From Cycloclasticus sp. 46_120_T64 (lineage in GTDB: Bacteria > Pseudomonadota > Gammaproteobacteria > Methylococcales > Cycloclasticaceae), in contig MAAM01000004.1 in assembly GCA_002162695.1 (NCBI GenBank), positions 273,795 through 337,794 on the forward strand: a stretch of DNA of 64,000 nt, in the 5' to 3' direction. A program made the translations under genes and the position numbers. The notes below the pieces were generated by a model. It was not told the origin of the DNA. It did no database searches and worked only from the letters and a program-made list of their open reading frames with translations. Shown here piece by piece: positions 3,730 through 13,248 of the stretch (within the stretch, counting starts at the first letter, position 1; each line of letters begins with the position of its first letter).

Positions 3730-4701
3730 TTAAATCACTAAGGTTTCTGTATTTGTATCGTTGGTTCCAGTTAGTGCAACGTCTTCTTGGTGTTCATCGG
3801 ATGTGGCAAAGATTTCTAATAGCTCACCTCTGGCCATGCCAGATTCTAGTTGACCAAACCAGTGCGCTTTTCCTGCTATGTCGCTATCGCGCCCGAGGGT
3901 GTTGTGGTACAGAGCTTCAATGAAGTCATCATCGGATAACTCAGTACCATAAAGAGTTTGGAACTCTTCTGATGCAAGAAAAAATGCTGCAATATCGCCA
4001 AGGTCAACGTCAGATTTTGCTAATTCTTTTGTCCAGTAGCCTAGGCCTTCTTCGTCGGCAGAGTGATTAAATGCTGCGTCATATAGTAGTTGTAGGGCAT
4101 CTTGGTCAGATAATCTATCATCGGAATCATCGGAATCATCGGAATCATCGGAATCATCGGAATCATCGGAATCATCGGAATCATCGGAATCATCGGAATC
4201 ATCGGAATCATCGGAATCATCGGAATCATCGGAATCATCGGAATCATCGGAATCATCGGAATCATCGGAATCATCGGAATCATCGGAATCATCGGAATCG
4301 TCTTGAGACCGCTCTACCGCTTCAGCAGAGGATAGTTCCTGCTGATTTTCGTCTTCAATTTTTTGGATGTGTTCGTCAGAGTTTGAAAAACCCAGTAATG
4401 CGTCTCTTTGCGATAGGCCTTCTTCCATAAGCCCAAGCCAATAAGCTAGGCCATCAGGGTCGGGTTCCCTATCTAATACATTTGAATACAGGAGTTCAAT
4501 GAACGCTTGATGGCTTAATTCATCACCAAAAAGATCGGTAAACTCTGCAGACGCAATAAATTCATCGGCAACTTCACCAAAAGTCATTTCACCTCGAGCC
4601 AGTTTAGATGCCCAGTAGCCGATGCCTTCCATGTCGGACTCTCTATCGAATGTCGCATGATATAGCCGAACTAAGCTTGAAAAAAATTCTCCGTTTGCCA
4701 T
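3730..4701 (-). CDS. DUF4214 protein with long Asp-Asp-Ser repeat linker
   Basis: 323 residues from ATG 4701, chosen because GGAGGA stands seven bases upstream; a longer TTG start at 4725 lacks this. Two DUF4214 regions (LYHATFDRESD...GYW near the N-terminus and LLYDAAFNHSAD...GYW after the repeat) each contain two helical half-units. Between them is a linker of about 60 residues made of repeated DDS, encoded by 20 perfect 9-bp repeats. There is no N-terminal signal peptide. DUF4214 is common in large type I-secreted and surface proteins. The acidic linker and the hydrophobic C-terminus (TETLVI) fit a secreted, possibly calcium-binding protein, but secretion is inferred. It is divergent from the metalloprotease that carries the same domain. 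Confidence 0.75.
   Translation of the reverse strand: MANGEFFSSLVRLYHATFDRESDMEGIGYWASKLARGEMTFGEVADEFIASAEFTDLFGDELSHQAFIELLYSNVLDREPDPDGLAYWLGLMEEGLSQRDALLGFSNSDEHIQKIEDENQQELSSAEAVERSQDDSDDSDDSDDSDDSDDSDDSDDSDDSDDSDDSDDSDDSDDSDDSDDSDDSDDSDDSDDSDDRLSDQDALQLLYDAAFNHSADEEGLGYWTKELAKSDVDLGDIAAFFLASEEFQTLYGTELSDDDFIEALYHNTLGRDSDIAGKAHWFGQLESGMARGELLEIFATSDEHQEDVALTGTNDTNTETLVI
4118..4297 (-). repeat. Perfect 9-bp tandem repeat, 20 units, coding
   Basis: TCATCGGAA on the + strand repeats 20 times without a mismatch and encodes Asp-Asp-Ser on the - strand. Because the unit is a multiple of three, copy-number change by slippage would lengthen or shorten the linker without a frameshift. The complete identity of the units at DNA level points to recent expansion or ongoing homogenisation. 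Confidence 0.95.
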
Positions 4702-4725
4702 TGTGTTTCCTCCTGTGACGCTCAA

Positions 4726-5113: not shown

Positions 5114-6739
5114 GTGAAGAGCCTCACAGACAGCTTTGCTGGTTTGTTTTACAATTGGGGGTTCTATCTTTTAAGTGTAGGTATGCAGATGTCGAGTATT
5201 ATTCCAGTGTTCTCTTCGGGGGATGCCAACGTAGCGGCGCTATTGGATGATTACCGCTGGATTACTTCTATTGGCGGTACAACTCAGCTTAGCTACAGTT
5301 TTCCTTCGGGTGCTGATACTCTCTGGGAGAGTGGTTATGGCGACGAGGTGGCATCATGGTCGGCATTGGATGTGGCTGAGCAGACACAGGTACATTCGGC
5401 CTTGAGTGCGTGGTCGGCGGTCGCCAATATTACATTTGAAGAAGTTGTTGACCAATCGAGTAGTGTGGGTGATCTTCGGTTTAGCCACAGTGATGCGGTT
5501 GGGGCCGATGATAACGGGATGACGGTGGGCTTTGCTTATTTGCCGTGGCCTAAATATACCTCGGGCGCCGAAGCAGCGGAATCGGCCGGCGATGTGTGGT
5601 TGAATGATTCGGATTATTCGGCTGCGCAGGGGGGTAATAGTTACAGGATACTGGTGCATGAAATTGGTCATGCGATTGGTTTGTCTCACCCCCACGACGG
5701 AGCGGCGTTACTTGAGGCGGCGTACGACAGCGCCCAATATAGCATCATGTCTTATAATAGACACCCCGATAGCTTATTCGATGGGCGACAAGCGACCACA
5801 CCCATGCTCTATGATATAGCGGCGGTGCAATATTTGTATGGCGCGAATAATAGCTACAAAATGGGGGATGATAGCTACCAGTTTGCTACCAATGGTGAAA
5901 TTTTAACGATATGGGATGCGGCAGGGAGTGATACCTTCGACTTTAGTAATCAAACCCATGCTGTGGATGTGTCATTGCTTGCGGGTGAGTTTAGTTCGGT
6001 CGGTTATCTTGACGGTGAGGCTAGGGGGGCGATAAATAACCTTGCCATCGCCTTTGATGTGGTGATTGAAAACGCCATTGGCAGTGATTACGCGGATACT
6101 ATCGTTGGCAACAGTGCAGACAATGTGATTACCGGAGGCTTAGGCGATGACCGGCTCTTTGGTGAAGGCGGCAGCGATATTGCTGTGGTTGATGTTGCTT
6201 ATGAGGGTGCGCAGATTGTCTTCACTGACGAGGGTGTTGAAATTAGCTCTTCAGAAGGCGTTGATTCATTGCAATCAATCGAGGCCGTACGTTTCTCGGA
6301 TGGGATTTTAAATTTATTATCGGGCGATTTGTCGGTACGCTTAGCCGACGAGGCGTTGGTGGGCCGTGTTGCTAGCCTGTATCAGGCGGCATTAGATCGA
6401 GAGCCGGATAGCGGTGGTTTGAATTTCTGGGTAGATAGTTATACCAACGGTTTTGAGGTAATGACTATTTCACAAAACTTTGTCGATTCTAGCGAGTTTT
6501 CCGAGAGATTTTCTATTGATTCTAATGCCGAGTATCTCGATACGCTTTATCAAAATGTATTGGGCCGCTCGGGTGATGAAGGTGGGGTGGCGTTTTGGTT
6601 AGGTGCTCTGGACAACGGGCATTCTTATGCTGAAGTTTTATTAGGTTTTTCAGATTCATTAGAAAATCAACAACAGGTCGCACCACTATTGGAAACCTTG
6701 AGCTACCGTGCGTCTGACGATTTGTGGATTTTAAGTTAA
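5114..6739 (+). CDS. Serralysin-like zinc metalloprotease with C-terminal DUF4214
   Basis: 541 residues from GTG 5114; ATG 5183 or 5189 would remove a weakly hydrophobic head and may be the true start. The M10 catalytic domain has the zinc motif HEIGHAIGLSH (H182, E183, H186, H192) and the Met-turn IMSY (M212). A short calcium-binding beta-roll follows (GGLGDDRLFGEGGSD, about residues 338-352), as in serralysins exported by type I systems. The last 130 residues are a DUF4214 region (LYQAALDREPDSGGLNFW, LYQNVLGRSGDEGGVAFW). Serralysins are secreted endopeptidases. The DUF4214 tail is an unusual extension and is shared with the neighbouring acidic-repeat protein. No inhibitor or secretion gene is adjacent. 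Confidence 0.85.
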   Translation: MKSLTDSFAGLFYNWGFYLLSVGMQMSSIIPVFSSGDANVAALLDDYRWITSIGGTTQLSYSFPSGADTLWESGYGDEVASWSALDVAEQTQVHSALSAWSAVANITFEEVVDQSSSVGDLRFSHSDAVGADDNGMTVGFAYLPWPKYTSGAEAAESAGDVWLNDSDYSAAQGGNSYRILVHEIGHAIGLSHPHDGAALLEAAYDSAQYSIMSYNRHPDSLFDGRQATTPMLYDIAAVQYLYGANNSYKMGDDSYQFATNGEILTIWDAAGSDTFDFSNQTHAVDVSLLAGEFSSVGYLDGEARGAINNLAIAFDVVIENAIGSDYADTIVGNSADNVITGGLGDDRLFGEGGSDIAVVDVAYEGAQIVFTDEGVEISSSEGVDSLQSIEAVRFSDGILNLLSGDLSVRLADEALVGRVASLYQAALDREPDSGGLNFWVDSYTNGFEVMTISQNFVDSSEFSERFSIDSNAEYLDTLYQNVLGRSGDEGGVAFWLGALDNGHSYAEVLLGFSDSLENQQQVAPLLETLSYRASDDLWILS

Positions 6740-6753
6740 TAAGGTAGGCGTAG

Positions 6754-7317
6754 GTGCGGAAACGGATTTTTGACTTGTTGGTGGCGCTGATCGTCGGCTT
6801 TTTGCTGCTGTTGCCTGTTGCGATTATTGCTATTGCAGTAAGGCTTAGTTCTAAAGGCCCCGTGCTCTATTGGTCGGACCGAGTGGGTATGAATAATGTG
6901 ATATTTAAGATGCCTAAGTTTCGCAGTATGAAGGTGGATACACCCGCTGTTGCGACACATTTGTTGCAGGACCCTGATAGTGCTTTAACCCCAATAGGCG
7001 GTTTTTTACGCCAATCAAGTTTGGATGAGCTGCCCCAGCTTTGGTCTATATTAAAAGGTGATATGAGCTTGGTCGGTCCGCGTCCCGCGTTGTTTAATCA
7101 ACACGATTTAATTGCGCTTCGAACTGAACAAGGTGTGCAGACATTAATTCCGGGTTTGACGGGTTGGGCGCAAGTGAATGGGCGCGATGAATTACCCATA
7201 CCACAAAAAGTGGAATGGGATGTTGAATACGTTCAACGGCAGACGTTTTTGTTCGATATTTATATTCTTTGGTTAACGGTTGTTAAGGTTCTTCGACGAA
7301 GCGGAGTTTCACACTGA
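6754..7317 (+). CDS. Initiating sugar-phosphate transferase (bacterial sugar transferase family)
   Basis: 187 residues, GTG start. One N-terminal hydrophobic helix (about residues 8-28) anchors a cytoplasmic domain with the family blocks KFRSMK, DELPQLWSILKGDMSLVGPRP and GLTGWAQVNGR. The short, single-anchor form matches PglC-type phosphoglycosyl transferases rather than the five-helix WbaP/WcaJ form. These enzymes transfer a sugar-1-phosphate from a UDP-sugar to undecaprenyl phosphate, the first step of surface glycan assembly. It lies 14 bp after the metalloprotease and may be co-transcribed with it. The other polysaccharide genes follow after a 148-bp gap with its own -10 element. Confidence 0.85.
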   Translation: MRKRIFDLLVALIVGFLLLLPVAIIAIAVRLSSKGPVLYWSDRVGMNNVIFKMPKFRSMKVDTPAVATHLLQDPDSALTPIGGFLRQSSLDELPQLWSILKGDMSLVGPRPALFNQHDLIALRTEQGVQTLIPGLTGWAQVNGRDELPIPQKVEWDVEYVQRQTFLFDIYILWLTVVKVLRRSGVSH

Positions 7318-7465: not shown

Positions 7466-8350
7466 ATGTTGAAGGTTCGTAAGGTTGTTATTCCGGTTGC
7501 GGGTTTGGGTACACGGGTATTACCGGCCAGTAAGGCCATTCCAAAGGAGATGATGCCGGTGGTTGATAAGCCGGTTATCCAGCACGTTGTAGAGGAAGCC
7601 GTTGCTGCCGGTATTAAGGAAATTATTTTGGTGACGCGTAGTGGTAAGTCGTCGATAGAAGACCATTTCGATAGCCATTATGAGCTTGAAGCGGAGCTTG
7701 CCCGGAAGAATAAAACGGCGCTGCTGGCCGCTATTCAGCAAATTATTCCGCCTGATGTGTCGATTATTGCAATTCGCCAAGCGCAGGCTAAGGGCTTAGG
7801 GCACGCGGTACACTGTGCTGCATCGGTGATTAACGATGAGCCGTTTGCGGTGATTTTGCCGGATGTGCTGGTAAATAATGTGTCAGCAGAGAATAACGAT
7901 TTGGCACGAATGGTGGCCGAGTTTGAAACGAGCGCGGCGGCGCAAATTATGGTGGGCGAGGTGCCGGTTGAAAAGGTTCAGTCGTATGGTATCGCCGATT
8001 GTGATGGTGTCATGCCTGCCGCTGGTGGTTCAACTCCGATAAAAGGCTTGGTGGAAAAACCAGCGCAGCAAGATGCGCCGTCAAATTTGGCGGTGATTGG
8101 CCGTTATATATTGCCTGCTAGGGTGATGGAGCTATTGGCCGATGGCCAGCCAGGTGCAGGTGGAGAAATTCAGTTAACCGACGCGATTGATAGTTTATTG
8201 GCAGAGCAAACCGTTGCCGCCTATAAAATGACCGGCGATACGTATGACTGTGGCGAGAAATTGGGTTATTTGAAGGCCAATATCGCCTACGGCTTGCAGC
8301 ACGCGGAAACGGCTGAGGGTTTGAAAGAATTTATTGCTAGTTTAGCTTAA
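7466..8350 (+). CDS. galU: UTP-glucose-1-phosphate uridylyltransferase
   Basis: 294 residues, the usual length. It makes UDP-glucose from UTP and glucose-1-phosphate in the cytoplasm. The nucleotide-binding start (VIPVAGLGTRVLPASKAIPK) and KEMMPVVDKP are complete, LPDVLV supplies the metal-binding Asp, and GLVEKP supplies the substrate Lys. It is followed after only four bases by pgi, so carbon is drawn from the hexose-phosphate pool straight into nucleotide sugars. Ribosome site GGAG is close to the ATG. Confidence 0.95.
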   Translation: MLKVRKVVIPVAGLGTRVLPASKAIPKEMMPVVDKPVIQHVVEEAVAAGIKEIILVTRSGKSSIEDHFDSHYELEAELARKNKTALLAAIQQIIPPDVSIIAIRQAQAKGLGHAVHCAASVINDEPFAVILPDVLVNNVSAENNDLARMVAEFETSAAAQIMVGEVPVEKVQSYGIADCDGVMPAAGGSTPIKGLVEKPAQQDAPSNLAVIGRYILPARVMELLADGQPGAGGEIQLTDAIDSLLAEQTVAAYKMTGDTYDCGEKLGYLKANIAYGLQHAETAEGLKEFIASLA

Positions 8351-8354
8351 CGCC

Positions 8355-9998
8355 ATGGCTGTTGAGAAAACGAGTGCTTGGCTTGAACTGCAGCAGCACG
8401 CGGAGCCGTTAAAGGAGCGACACTTAAAAGATATGTTTCAGGCGGACGCTAAACGTTTTGAACGTTTTAGTTTTTCGTTTGATAAATATTTATTGGACTT
8501 ATCAAAGCAGCGCATCGACGATAAGGCGTTGGAGAAGCTAATAGACTTGGCTCAGCAGCAGCAGTTAAAGCCATGGATTGAGCGCCTGTTTTCTGCCGAT
8601 AAAGTGAATGATTCAGAGCAGCGTGCGGCTTTACATATGGCGCTACGTCAGCCAGAAGGTCGGGTTTTACGGCATGAAGGTGAAGATGTTGTTGCGGGTG
8701 TGCAGTGTTCATTGATGAAGATGCAGCAACTAGTGGAGCGGATCCAGCAGGCGCAGTGGCGTGGTTACGATGGGCGACCGATCAGTAACATCGTCAATAT
8801 CGGGGTGGGTGGTTCAAGCCTTGGCCCGTTAATGGTTTGCGATGCACTGGAGCAGTATTGCCCCGCGGAAGTACGTCACCTCAATGTGCACTTCGTATCG
8901 TCGATGGATGGTAGTGAGTTGGAAAAGCTGTTGCCAAAGTTAGACCCAGCGACCACCTTATTTATTGTGGCGTCAAAAACATTTAGCACGGTGGATACGT
9001 TAGCCAATGCTAATACCGCTAGAGAATGGTTGCTGGCGGCGAGCAAACAGCCGATTGAGTTGATTAATCAGCAGCACTTTATTGCGGCCACCGCGAGCCC
9101 TGCGGCGGCAAAGGCTTGGGGGGTACCCGAGAGGCACCAATTATTGCTTTGGGATTGGGTCGGTGGACGGTATTCCTTATGGTCGGTTATTGGAATGCCT
9201 ATTGCGTTGAAAATTGGTATGGGGCAGTTTCGTAAATTGTTAGACGGTGCGCATAAGATGGATGAGCACTTTAGAGAAGCGCCGCTGGAAAATAATTTCC
9301 CGGTACTGCTGGGATTGATGGGTGTATGGAATATTAATTTTTTAGATATTCATGCGCACGCAATTCTGCCTTATGACGGCCGGTTGGCACAATTCCCCGC
9401 TTATTTAGAACAGTTGGAAATGGAAAGTAACGGTAAAAGCGTTAATCGTGCAGGCCAGCGTATCGATTATCGTACTTGTCCAGTGCTTTGGGGGCAGGTG
9501 GGTTCGAATGCACAACACGCTTTCTATCAGTTGTTGCACCAAGGTACCGAGCCGGTTATGTGTGATTTTATTACCCCAGCGGTACGTTATGACGGGGATG
9601 GCGCAGAGTTGCAGGAGCAACATCAATTGTCCTTGGCAAATTGTTTTGCGCAGTCTCGTTTGCTGGCTTTGGGCGATAGTATGCTGAGCGACAATGAAGG
9701 CGCTTCCAGTTATAAGCACTATGATGGCAATCAGCCGAGTACCACCTTGATGTTGGAGGCGCTGTGTCCGGAAACATTAGGCGGGCTCATTGCCTTGTAT
9801 GAACATAAGGTGTTTGTGCAGTCTGTTATTTGGGAGATTAACCCGTTTGACCAATGGGGGGTTGAACAAGGGAAAAAAGTGGCGACGTCCTTGTTAACTA
9901 CCTTAGCCGGTGGCGCGGGGGATAATTTGGATGCATCAACGGAAGGTTTAGTCCGTTTTATTCAAGAGCAAACACGAGGTGTAACTGATGAAGGTTAA
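8355..9998 (+). CDS. pgi: Glucose-6-phosphate isomerase
   Basis: 547 residues (E. coli 549). It interconverts glucose-6-phosphate and fructose-6-phosphate. Family blocks seen in order: GVGGSSLGP, SKTFSTVDT, MESNGKSV with the catalytic-region Glu, and GQVGSNAQHAFYQLLHQG with the catalytic His. It overlaps the next gene by 11 bp and follows galU by 4 bp, a tightly coupled operon for glucose-derived sugar nucleotides. Confidence 0.95.
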   Translation: MAVEKTSAWLELQQHAEPLKERHLKDMFQADAKRFERFSFSFDKYLLDLSKQRIDDKALEKLIDLAQQQQLKPWIERLFSADKVNDSEQRAALHMALRQPEGRVLRHEGEDVVAGVQCSLMKMQQLVERIQQAQWRGYDGRPISNIVNIGVGGSSLGPLMVCDALEQYCPAEVRHLNVHFVSSMDGSELEKLLPKLDPATTLFIVASKTFSTVDTLANANTAREWLLAASKQPIELINQQHFIAATASPAAAKAWGVPERHQLLLWDWVGGRYSLWSVIGMPIALKIGMGQFRKLLDGAHKMDEHFREAPLENNFPVLLGLMGVWNINFLDIHAHAILPYDGRLAQFPAYLEQLEMESNGKSVNRAGQRIDYRTCPVLWGQVGSNAQHAFYQLLHQGTEPVMCDFITPAVRYDGDGAELQEQHQLSLANCFAQSRLLALGDSMLSDNEGASSYKHYDGNQPSTTLMLEALCPETLGGLIALYEHKVFVQSVIWEINPFDQWGVEQGKKVATSLLTTLAGGAGDNLDASTEGLVRFIQEQTRGVTDEG

Positions 9999-11250
9999 TG
10001 TTTATGGCTCGGGGCTTTCTGCTTGGGTTGCGGCGGCGTGTCTAGCTAAAGTAGGTAATGACGTTGTTATCGATGAGCTGAGCGACGGGCCGATGTTGTC
10101 GTTGGGAACGATCTCTATTATTGATGACGAACCTGGCTTGCTGGGGCAGATTCAGCAGCAAATGGCGGATGGGCGCTTGCTGCGGCAGCCGAGTGGGGGC
10201 GAGGTTGCAGCGACGGTTCATTGGTTAGCCTTACAGCCGTCGGAGCAGCATATTGCTGAGCGGGTCATTGACGGTTTGAGTCAGACGAAGGCTGTCGAGT
10301 TGCTGGTTATTAATCAGTGCAATTTCGCGGTAGGTGCATCAGAGGGGCTGCAATCTCGTTTGGCTAATGTGGGTGATGTGGTTTATGTACCCGATAATTT
10401 GCAAGATGGGGTGGCGTTACAGGGGTTTATGCGACCTAATCGAATTATTTTAGGTGCAGATAGTCGTCGTGCCTTGGTTAAAACAAAGGCCTTATTTCGG
10501 CCATTTAGTTATGAGTTGGATGCATTGCAGTTGATGAGTTCTCGTGAAGCGGAGTTTACCAAGTTTGCGATTACCGGCATGTTGGCTATTCGCCTAGGTT
10601 ATATTAATGAATTGGCTAATTTAGCCGATCAGCTGGGCGTGGATATTACGATGGTGCAGGATGGTATGGGAGCTGACCCACGGGTTGGTCACCATTATTT
10701 GTCACCGGGTTGTGGTTTTGGCGGGCAGAATTTTTCGGCTTATCTGTCGACATTTTCGGGTATTCTTCAGCAGCAGCGGGACACGTCTTTACTGACAACA
10801 GTGATTGACGAAAATGAGTTGCAAAAAGAACTGCTGTTTCGGAAGTTTTGGCAGTACAACCAAGGGGACGTTAAAGATAAGGTCGTTGCGATATGGGGTG
10901 CGTCATTTAAACCGGGTACCGCGAGTATCGATAATGCACCGAGCTTGAGAATTATTGATGCGCTGGTGTCACAGGGGGTGCAGGTGAGGATTCATGACCC
11001 AGAGGCGACGGCGAACCTTCAGCAGTATTACCCAGCTGAGCCGTTGATTGCTTATGTTGATGCTCCGCTGGCGGCGCTTGAGGGAGCCGATGCGCTATTC
11101 TTAGTGACTGAGTGGCCGTTATATTGGTCGCCTGATTATGTCGCGATGTTAAATTTGATGCGTACTCCTTTGGTTATTGATGGGCGTAATGTGTTCGATA
11201 AAGAAATGTTGCAACAGAGTGGCTTTATATATTTAGGAGTGGGGCGTTAG
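9988..11250 (+). CDS. UDP-glucose/GDP-mannose dehydrogenase homologue lacking catalytic residues
   Basis: 420 residues, collinear with UDP-glucose 6-dehydrogenases from end to end: N-terminal Rossmann start (VYGSGLSAWVAAACLA), central helix (TKFAITGMLAIRLGYINELA), C-terminal Rossmann (WGASFKPGT) and a final GRNVFD. The key positions have changed. GGSCFPKD has become GGQNFSAY (residues 245-252), so the catalytic Cys is Asn248 and the following Lys/Asp are gone. NPEFLREG is replaced by VPDNLQDG, and the STVPVGT block is lost. Oxidation of UDP-glucose to the acid by the normal thiohemiacetal route should be impossible. An intact frame and an 11-bp overlap with pgi argue that it is maintained, perhaps as a sugar-nucleotide-binding regulator or partner. 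Confidence 0.8.
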   Translation: MKVNVYGSGLSAWVAAACLAKVGNDVVIDELSDGPMLSLGTISIIDDEPGLLGQIQQQMADGRLLRQPSGGEVAATVHWLALQPSEQHIAERVIDGLSQTKAVELLVINQCNFAVGASEGLQSRLANVGDVVYVPDNLQDGVALQGFMRPNRIILGADSRRALVKTKALFRPFSYELDALQLMSSREAEFTKFAITGMLAIRLGYINELANLADQLGVDITMVQDGMGADPRVGHHYLSPGCGFGGQNFSAYLSTFSGILQQQRDTSLLTTVIDENELQKELLFRKFWQYNQGDVKDKVVAIWGASFKPGTASIDNAPSLRIIDALVSQGVQVRIHDPEATANLQQYYPAEPLIAYVDAPLAALEGADALFLVTEWPLYWSPDYVAMLNLMRTPLVIDGRNVFDKEMLQQSGFIYLGVGR

Positions 11251-11328: not shown

Positions 11329-13248
11329 ATGGATGTTTTTTCTTTTCCTGGGTGGTTTATTGCTCGAAGCCGCTACGTAAAGCGCGGCATGACCTTGGTG
11401 TTTGACTTTGTTGTCATCACCCTGTCTTTGTGGCTGGCTTTTTCTTTACGTTTGGGCGAGTTTTATTGGCCGGAGGGGCGGGTGGTTAGCTTGTTTATGG
11501 TCGCTCCATTCGTTGCATTTCCGGTGTTCATTAAGCTGGGTCTGTATCGGGCAATTATTCGTTATATCGGTTTTCATTCCTTATGGGTGGTGGTCAAGGC
11601 GGTGTCCTTGTATGGCTTGTTGTTATCAGCGGTGGTGCTACTGGGCAGCATTGAAGTTGTGCCGCGCTCGGTACATATTATTAACTGGTTGATCGCCTTA
11701 TTATTGGTGGGCGGGAGTCGAATGGTGGTTCGCTGGTGGCTTGCGGGGGCGTTTGCAACCTTGTCGGACAGTGGCGTTACGCGTAAGTTTGTTATTTATG
11801 GCGCGGGAGCCTCCGGGGTGGAGCTGCTGGGGCAATTAAATGCAAAAAAAGATATGGAAGTGATTGGTTTTATCGACGATGAAGCTTCTTTACACCGCCG
11901 TCAATTGGGTGATATTAGGGTGCACCCTTTTAGTCATTTGAGTCGGTTGATCGAACGTAAGGGGGTTACCGATGTGCTGCTCGCGATGCCGTCTGTTTCA
12001 CGTTCACGCCGGAATGAAATTATCACCTTGTTAGAGCCCTACCCAGTGAAGGTTTTAACCCTGCCTAGCTTGGTAGAAATCGCGGGCGGTGAGGTCACAG
12101 TCGGCGATATTCGGGAAGTAGAAATTGAGGATTTGTTGGGTAGAGATCAAGTGCTTCCAGATTCTTCTCTGATGTGTAAAAACATTTATCAGAAAGTGGT
12201 GATGGTAACCGGCGCCGGCGGCTCGATTGGTGCTGAATTGTGTCGGCAGATTATACGTGTGCAGCCGAAGGAGTTGGTTTTATTTGAGCATAGCGAGTTT
12301 GCCCTGTATTCAATTGAGCGCGAGTTACAACAACACCTCAAGGGCGTGGCGATCACTATACGGCCTGTACTGGGCTCTGTGGTCGATAAGGCGAGGGTGT
12401 TGCAAGCCTGCCAAATAGCGAAAGTTCAAACTTTATACCATGCGGCGGCGTATAAACACGTGCCTTTGGTGGAGCAGAACCCTCGTGAAGCAATAAATAA
12501 CAACGTCATGGGTACCTTGAATGTGGCGGAATCAGCGATTGAATCGGGGGTCAGTGATTTCATTTTGATATCTACCGATAAGGCGGTGCGTCCAACCAAC
12601 ACGATGGGCGCGTCAAAACGGATGGCCGAATTGGTGTTGCAGGCACTTAATGATAAGCAGTTAGGCGATGGTGCAACACTGTTTACGATGGTGCGCTTTG
12701 GTAATGTATTAGGCTCGTCGGGTTCAGTTATTCCGTTGTTTAAACAGCAAATTCAGCAGGGTGGGCCAGTGACCGTGACTGACCCGAATGTTATGCGTTA
12801 TTTTATGACCATCCCGGAGGCTTCGCAGCTAGTTATCCAAGCGGGTGCAATGGCCGAGGGCGGTGACGTATTTGTGTTAGATATGGGGGAGCCGGTTAAA
12901 ATTGTAGAGCTGGCAAAACGAATGATTCACCTAAGTGGTTTGGTGGTAAAGGATGAAAATACGCCGCACGGAGACATCCCTCTTGTATTTACCGGTTTAC
13001 GCCCAGGTGAAAAATTATATGAAGAGCTGCTGATCGGAGGTAACGTCGTTAGCACGCAGCACAGTAAAATTATGCGGGCCAATGAGGCATGCTTGAGCTG
13101 GGAGGAGTTAAGCCCGCTGCTGGACGGTTTGCGAAACGCGGTTAAGGTCAACGATGATGCTGCTATTCGGGGTGTTCTCGCGCAGGCGGTGAGTGGTTAT
13201 AAACCCCAGTGTGAGGTGGTTAATATACTAAAAGCATCGACTAATTAA
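11329..13248 (+). CDS. FlaA1/CapD/WbpM-type membrane nucleotide-sugar 4,6-dehydratase/epimerase
   Basis: 639 residues, the long membrane form. About four hydrophobic helices occupy residues 20-140, then a degenerate nucleotide-binding domain (IYGAGASGVELL, about residue 155). The catalytic SDR domain follows from about residue 290: GxxGxxG in VTGAGGSIGAE, DKAVRPTNTMGASK with the Met-x3-Lys pair that replaces Tyr-x3-Lys in this family, and GLRPGEKLYEELL near the end. Relatives convert UDP-GlcNAc to 4-keto-6-deoxy sugars for O-antigen, capsule or lipid-linked glycans. It closes the polysaccharide block; substrate is not determinable from sequence. Confidence 0.85.
   Translation: MDVFSFPGWFIARSRYVKRGMTLVFDFVVITLSLWLAFSLRLGEFYWPEGRVVSLFMVAPFVAFPVFIKLGLYRAIIRYIGFHSLWVVVKAVSLYGLLLSAVVLLGSIEVVPRSVHIINWLIALLLVGGSRMVVRWWLAGAFATLSDSGVTRKFVIYGAGASGVELLGQLNAKKDMEVIGFIDDEASLHRRQLGDIRVHPFSHLSRLIERKGVTDVLLAMPSVSRSRRNEIITLLEPYPVKVLTLPSLVEIAGGEVTVGDIREVEIEDLLGRDQVLPDSSLMCKNIYQKVVMVTGAGGSIGAELCRQIIRVQPKELVLFEHSEFALYSIERELQQHLKGVAITIRPVLGSVVDKARVLQACQIAKVQTLYHAAAYKHVPLVEQNPREAINNNVMGTLNVAESAIESGVSDFILISTDKAVRPTNTMGASKRMAELVLQALNDKQLGDGATLFTMVRFGNVLGSSGSVIPLFKQQIQQGGPVTVTDPNVMRYFMTIPEASQLVIQAGAMAEGGDVFVLDMGEPVKIVELAKRMIHLSGLVVKDENTPHGDIPLVFTGLRPGEKLYEELLIGGNVVSTQHSKIMRANEACLSWEELSPLLDGLRNAVKVNDDAAIRGVLAQAVSGYKPQCEVVNILKASTN

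Follow-up and report, generated by a model that had tools for sequence, protein, structure and literature searches.

The gene that follows pgi in Cycloclasticus sp. 46_120_T64 encodes a protein with the full UDP-glucose dehydrogenase (UGDH) fold but without the catalytic cysteine, and it belongs to one old clade of Cys-less proteins descended from Cys-bearing UGDHs. Loss of the dehydrogenase function is strongly supported at the level of sequence, since the NAD-site residues and the catalytic Cys are both gone, and the protein is probably a non-oxidising UDP-sugar-binding paralogue placed at the Pgi/GalU node. Taken as a whole we hold this to be the best explanation and a reasonably probable one. 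The window, meaning the whole stretch of 64,000 nucleotides that was analysed, contains the following features of this locus.

7466..8350, + strand: galU, UTP-glucose-1-phosphate uridylyltransferase (TIGR01099, 345.8 bits, above cut-off)
8355..9998, + strand: pgi, glucose-6-phosphate isomerase (NF001211, 716.7 bits)
9988..11250, + strand: open reading frame of the Cys-less UGDH-like protein, 420 aa, full UGDH fold
10006..10026, + strand: GSGLSAW, degenerate dinucleotide-binding motif, canonically GxGYVGL (alignment)
10315..10338, + strand: QCNFAVGA, replacing KSTVPVGT (alignment)
10390..10410, + strand: PDNLQDG, replacing PEFLKEG (alignment)
10720..10743, + strand: GGQNFSAY, residues 245-252, canonically GGSCFPKD (alignment)
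10888..11202, + strand: retained PF03720 UDP-binding domain with Lys308 and Arg400 (Pfam match; both residues in 54/54 clade members)
11329..13248, + strand: CapD-type nucleotide-sugar dehydratase/epimerase (model match), adjoining in part of Cycloclasticus only

The frame runs from an ATG at 9988 to a stop at 11250 and overlaps the end of pgi by 11 bp, as had been described from the sequence. Upstream of galU the window holds, at 3730-4725 on the minus strand, a protein in which two similar repeat-bearing ends flank a long (DSD)n repeat, and at 5114-6739 on the plus strand a protein with the zinc-protease motif HEIGHAIGLSH and C-terminal repeats of the same kind. The 187-aa protein at 6754-7317 (plus strand) matches polyprenyl glycosylphosphotransferase models in its C-terminal catalytic part only. 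A defence gene was rejected as a candidate, PADLOC giving no match.

The alignment bears out the original prediction that the catalytic Cys has been lost, with Asn248 at the Cys position, and that the Lys and Asp following it are missing, Tyr252 occupying the position of the catalytic Asp. NPEFL(K/R)EG and STVPVGT were likewise said to be gone, and their counterparts here read VPDNLQDG and CNFAVGA. Loss or degradation extends beyond Cys and Asp264 to Tyr10, Thr83 and the GxGxxG motif. The C-terminal nucleotide-sugar domain is kept as predicted, the UDP-binding domain matching Pfam at E 5.8e-24, the central domain at 4.6e-20 and the NAD-binding domain most weakly at 1.3e-06. PF03721, PF00984 and PF03720 all score above gathering (28.6/27, 71.9/25.4 and 84.9/30 bits), the NAD domain barely so, and by these three domains together with the full-length UGDH fold the protein has the fold of the NDP-sugar dehydrogenase superfamily. 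Its score is narrowly under the cut-off of TIGR03026, the NCBIfam nucleotide-sugar dehydrogenase model (189.3 vs 189.8), and well under those of the UGDH equivalogs TuaD (213.5 vs 700) and AglM (182 vs 670). As a UGDH enzyme the protein thus lacks the catalytic Cys260, Asp264, the NAD-site residues and the NCBIfam scores, and what it has are the substrate-side residues Lys204 (53/54 in the clade) and Arg244 (54/54). A canonical UGDH with GGSCFPKD is also present in the same genome and is placed elsewhere in the tree.

The AF2 model of the protein, built on 93 sequences, has a pLDDT of 94.0 and a pTM of 0.88, and the nearest solved structures are UGDHs, namely 3gg2 (VIA Z 47.5, rmsd 2.0 over 410 residues) and BceC (46.7); the alignment included canonical UGDHs, and the model is thereby biased towards the UGDH fold. 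An earlier model from 20 clade rows only was weaker, with its domains poorly placed (rmsd about 20), and again had UGDHs on top at Z 28.8.

A substitution confined to this strain is rejected by the distribution of the gene, which is clade-wide. GGQNF and the other altered motifs are common to all 12 full-length Cycloclasticus copies, and when 84,980 species genomes were scanned for the pattern with the clade alignment, the gene turned up in Cycloclasticus, Amphritea, Marinobacterium, Nitrincola and Neptuniibacter. Whole-genome searches gave strong matches in 55/59 genomes of the gammaproteobacterial family f61, matches of 500 bits or more in at least 49/61 genomes of f177, matches in 7/41 genomes of f161 and more members in f110, f197 and f202; motifs and gene context were inspected in a sample of these family-level matches. 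A 100-supported branch sets the Cys-less proteins apart in a tree of 101 rows, and in a tree rooted with short UGDHs they form a single clade (100/100) with a long stem, nested in the Cys-bearing UGDHs. The protein of the window shares everything by which the clade is defined: monophyly, absence of Cys, Trp288/Arg202/Phe244 and an adjoining pgi or galU. One copy of the Cys-less gene (L101:1501-2616, in the otherwise complete genome G480) carries a frameshift close to the 3′ end.

Loss and retention of residues were counted in 54 non-redundant clade members, or in 53 rows for the Cys position and for identity, a survey of 229 sequences having earlier given 18 invariant UGDH residues (PMC4794789). 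Cys260 is absent from 53/53 clade members and present in 40/40 canonical UGDHs; the position is taken by N (29), S (11), H (7), A (2), V, Y, T or G and never by C. Asn is therefore not a replacement nucleophile, and a catalytic Asn was rejected. A suggested check was whether the Asn form is a conserved clade always beside pgi or galU: the clade and, in 52 of 53 members, the neighbourhood stood, but Asn (29/53) is not invariant. An active Cys supplied from another position was also rejected, the alignment containing no newly conserved, clade-specific Cys (canonical UGDHs have C242 as well, and C111 occurs only in Cycloclasticus/Amphritea).

In the cofactor site the second Gly of the dinucleotide motif (Gly9) is lost in 48/54, though still Gly in the protein of the window, Tyr10 in 53/54 (Leu instead in 49/54), Gly12 in 43/54 and Asp29 in 52/54; the Thr83 loop is deleted in all 54, and Glu141 is altered in 47/54, mostly to Asp. 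The Asp264 position holds D, Y, T, N, H or Q, with Asp in 27/54, and position N208 holds N, T, I or S. Gly7, Glu201, Lys204, Asn219, Arg244, Gly257, Gly258, Asn287, Lys320 and the Arg of DGRN are retained in 53-54 of the 54. Two of these residues coordinate the ligand, Lys320 at its diphosphate and Gly257 at its UMP (PMC4794789). In the human enzyme the glucose of the adjacent subunit is held by Arg260 (PMC3184952), which by our alignment would be the counterpart of Arg244. Of the columns conserved in canonical UGDHs the NAD domain retains a fraction of 0.45, the central domain 0.64 and the UDP domain 0.82, and mean within-clade identity is 0.35 in the N domain (canonical 0.62) and 0.51 in the C domain (canonical 0.57). 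Residues fixed specifically in the clade are Arg202, Phe244 and Trp288 (54/54), and Tyr237, Leu238, Glu281 and Gln329 at 94% or more. Asp264 and Asn208 persist in members that branch early, as in GGPNFAKDV, a pattern which suggests a stepwise loss in which the Cys and the NAD motif may have gone first.

On the same strand pgi or galU adjoins the gene in 52/53 non-redundant clade members, vs 1/47 canonical UGDHs in the same test, the sole exception being in genome G585 (L195). Cycloclasticus, the Amphritea/Marinobacterium group and f61 have the order galU-pgi-X, with X the Cys-less gene; most of f177 has galU-X, and a single genome (L202) galU-X-pgi. A phosphoglucomutase/phosphomannomutase-type gene lies downstream in two lineages, Amphritea and one other, and in one fragmented MAG pgi and the Cys-less gene make up one uninterrupted 943-aa frame (L149:3756-6587), which is either a fusion or a sequencing error. 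Of the galU-pgi-capD pathway to which the gene had been assigned, the galU/pgi link is upheld and a general link to capD is not. In close pairs dN/dS of the Cys-less gene is 0.02-0.12, near the values for pgi and galU of the same genomes. A general role as accessory subunit of a working UGDH was rejected, because several complete genomes (G510, G520, G525) have no other UGDH-family protein: the Cys-less protein, reading GGDNFTRDL, is there the only one with PF00984.

A search of a plasmid database matched three chromosome-sized records of Acinetobacter baumannii, and the following refers to these three genomes, which were examined directly.

L205:8001-9260, L208:20001-21260 and L209:20001-21260: the A. 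baumannii Cys-less gene, between galU and gpi

The 420-aa product reads GFGGENFSHD (Cys to Asn), also lacks a normal NAD motif and falls inside the Cys-less clade (100/100). By its position it is the K-locus gene called ugd, a UDP-glucose dehydrogenase by name in the literature, which predicts UDP-GlcA as its product. It shares with the Cycloclasticus protein the clade, the galU/gpi neighbourhood and the change of Cys to Asn, but differs in gene order (galU-ugd-gpi instead of galU-pgi-ugd) and in keeping Asp (SHD) at the general-base position. Gna of the same K loci retains GGHC and GLGYVG and serves as an internal control. According to the literature galU, ugd, gpi and pgm are present in every K locus, and D-GlcA has been assigned to the extra genes ugd2-ugd5 in 24 K loci (PMC9676051); KL71, with a GlcA-containing capsule, carries ugd4 (PMC11619341). 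The published ugd2-ugd5 assignment is consistent with the K-locus Ugd not being a source of UDP-GlcA. A phage-resistant mutant with an insertion in ugd has been reported (PMC10904470), which hints at a capsule role, although the insertion may be polar on gpi. No Acinetobacter relatives were found at E 1e-90 in the class genome sample.

The UGDHs BceC (2y0c), that of P. gingivalis (3gg2) and the TuaD/AglM type share with the Cycloclasticus protein the fold over its whole length (Z about 47, rmsd 2.0, 33-34% identity), the residues contacting the UDP-sugar and the central helix. Unlike them it has no catalytic Cys, Asp, Tyr10 or Thr83 loop and its NAD motif is degraded, and its clade further differs in the near-fixed place after pgi/galU and in the clade-specific Trp288, Gln329, Arg202 and Phe244. 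E. coli GalF is a paralogue of GalU with weak activity, on the way to inactivation and near the synthesis of UDP-glucose (PMC4643126). It is a functional analogy only, being derived from the pyrophosphorylase GalU, with an unrelated fold, and not from UGDH. OpgH and UgtP likewise offer only an analogy, as sugar-nucleotide enzymes that are nutrient-dependent, UDP-glucose-linked regulators (PMC3723540, PMC5889556), but they are non-homologous glucosyltransferases acting on cell division. In the open-access literature no description of a pseudo-UGDH, a Cys-less UGDH or a galU-pgi-UGDH cluster was found; the fold is known, and what appears to be new is the clade, its loss pattern and the connection with the K-locus gene of A. 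baumannii.

The members of the clade are descendants of UGDH that probably no longer oxidise any substrate. They retain the fold together with the residues in contact with the UDP-sugar, and presumably bind UDP-glucose or a close UDP-sugar. Judged from the gene neighbourhood they would most likely serve as a UDP-sugar-responsive partner or sensor tuning the flux from hexose phosphate to UDP-glucose, perhaps by acting on GalU or Pgi. A drifting cofactor pocket, a fixed substrate pocket and a near-fixed operon make up the trace expected of such a regulator or complex partner. This agrees with the proposal of a UDP-sugar-binding pseudoenzyme, for which the loss of NAD-binding and catalytic residues, the retained UDP-sugar contacts, the constraint and the tie to galU/pgi all speak, but not with the weight placed on Asn. 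Against it, the regulatory role is drawn from the gene neighbourhood, and the clade still has Lys204, mostly Glu145 and, in about half of its members, Asp264 and Asn208, which makes some chemistry conceivable. A new NAD-independent reaction on a UDP-sugar, employing the retained Lys192 and neighbouring residues, would account for the conservation of Lys192 (53/54) and of Arg232 and Lys308 (54/54), for the clade-specific Phe244 and Tyr237 fixed beside the substrate loop and for the strong purifying selection. The surroundings of the former nucleophile and general base (C260, D264, N208) vary freely, however, unlike an active site, and we know of no cofactor-free chemistry in a UGDH fold; such a reaction is improbable. 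Unlikely too is a structural scaffold that holds GalU and Pgi, with or without phosphoglucomutase, in a channelling complex and binds ligand only secondarily. The near-invariant operon position, the in-frame fusion to pgi, the downstream phosphoglucomutase/phosphomannomutase-type gene and the invariant Trp288, Gln329 and Arg202 are in its favour, but the UDP-sugar pocket residues, which a pure scaffold would not need, are the best conserved, galU alone adjoins in some lineages and the fusion is a single case from a fragmented genome.

That the protein is still a UDP-glucose 6-dehydrogenase acting through other residues, as its family annotation and identical overall fold would have it, is very hard to reconcile with the loss of Cys, Tyr10, the dinucleotide motif and Asp29, the deleted Thr83 loop, the scores below TIGR03026 and the equivalog cut-offs, and the assignment of A. 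baumannii GlcA capsules to ugd2-ugd5 though every K locus has ugd. We give practically no credence to a decaying pseudogene or sequencing artefact, as which the missing catalytic residues and the one frameshifted copy might be read, nearly all members being full-length, with the low dN/dS given above, and conserved across much of a class. More tentatively than the UDP-sugar-binding paralogue itself, we put forward as possible a wider version of it, in which UDP-glucose sensors derived from UGDH would control the Pgi-GalU route class-wide and the A. baumannii K-locus ugd would be one of them, its biosynthetic role having been misassigned.

A widespread gene annotated as UDP-glucose 6-dehydrogenase is, judged by its residues, very probably unable to make UDP-glucuronate, which would change what is predicted of metabolism and capsule in marine gammaproteobacteria and in A. 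baumannii. With a single origin, a graded loss of residues across lineages and a near-fixed operon, the clade represents a natural pseudoenzyme that can be tested as a UDP-sugar sensor of carbon flux.
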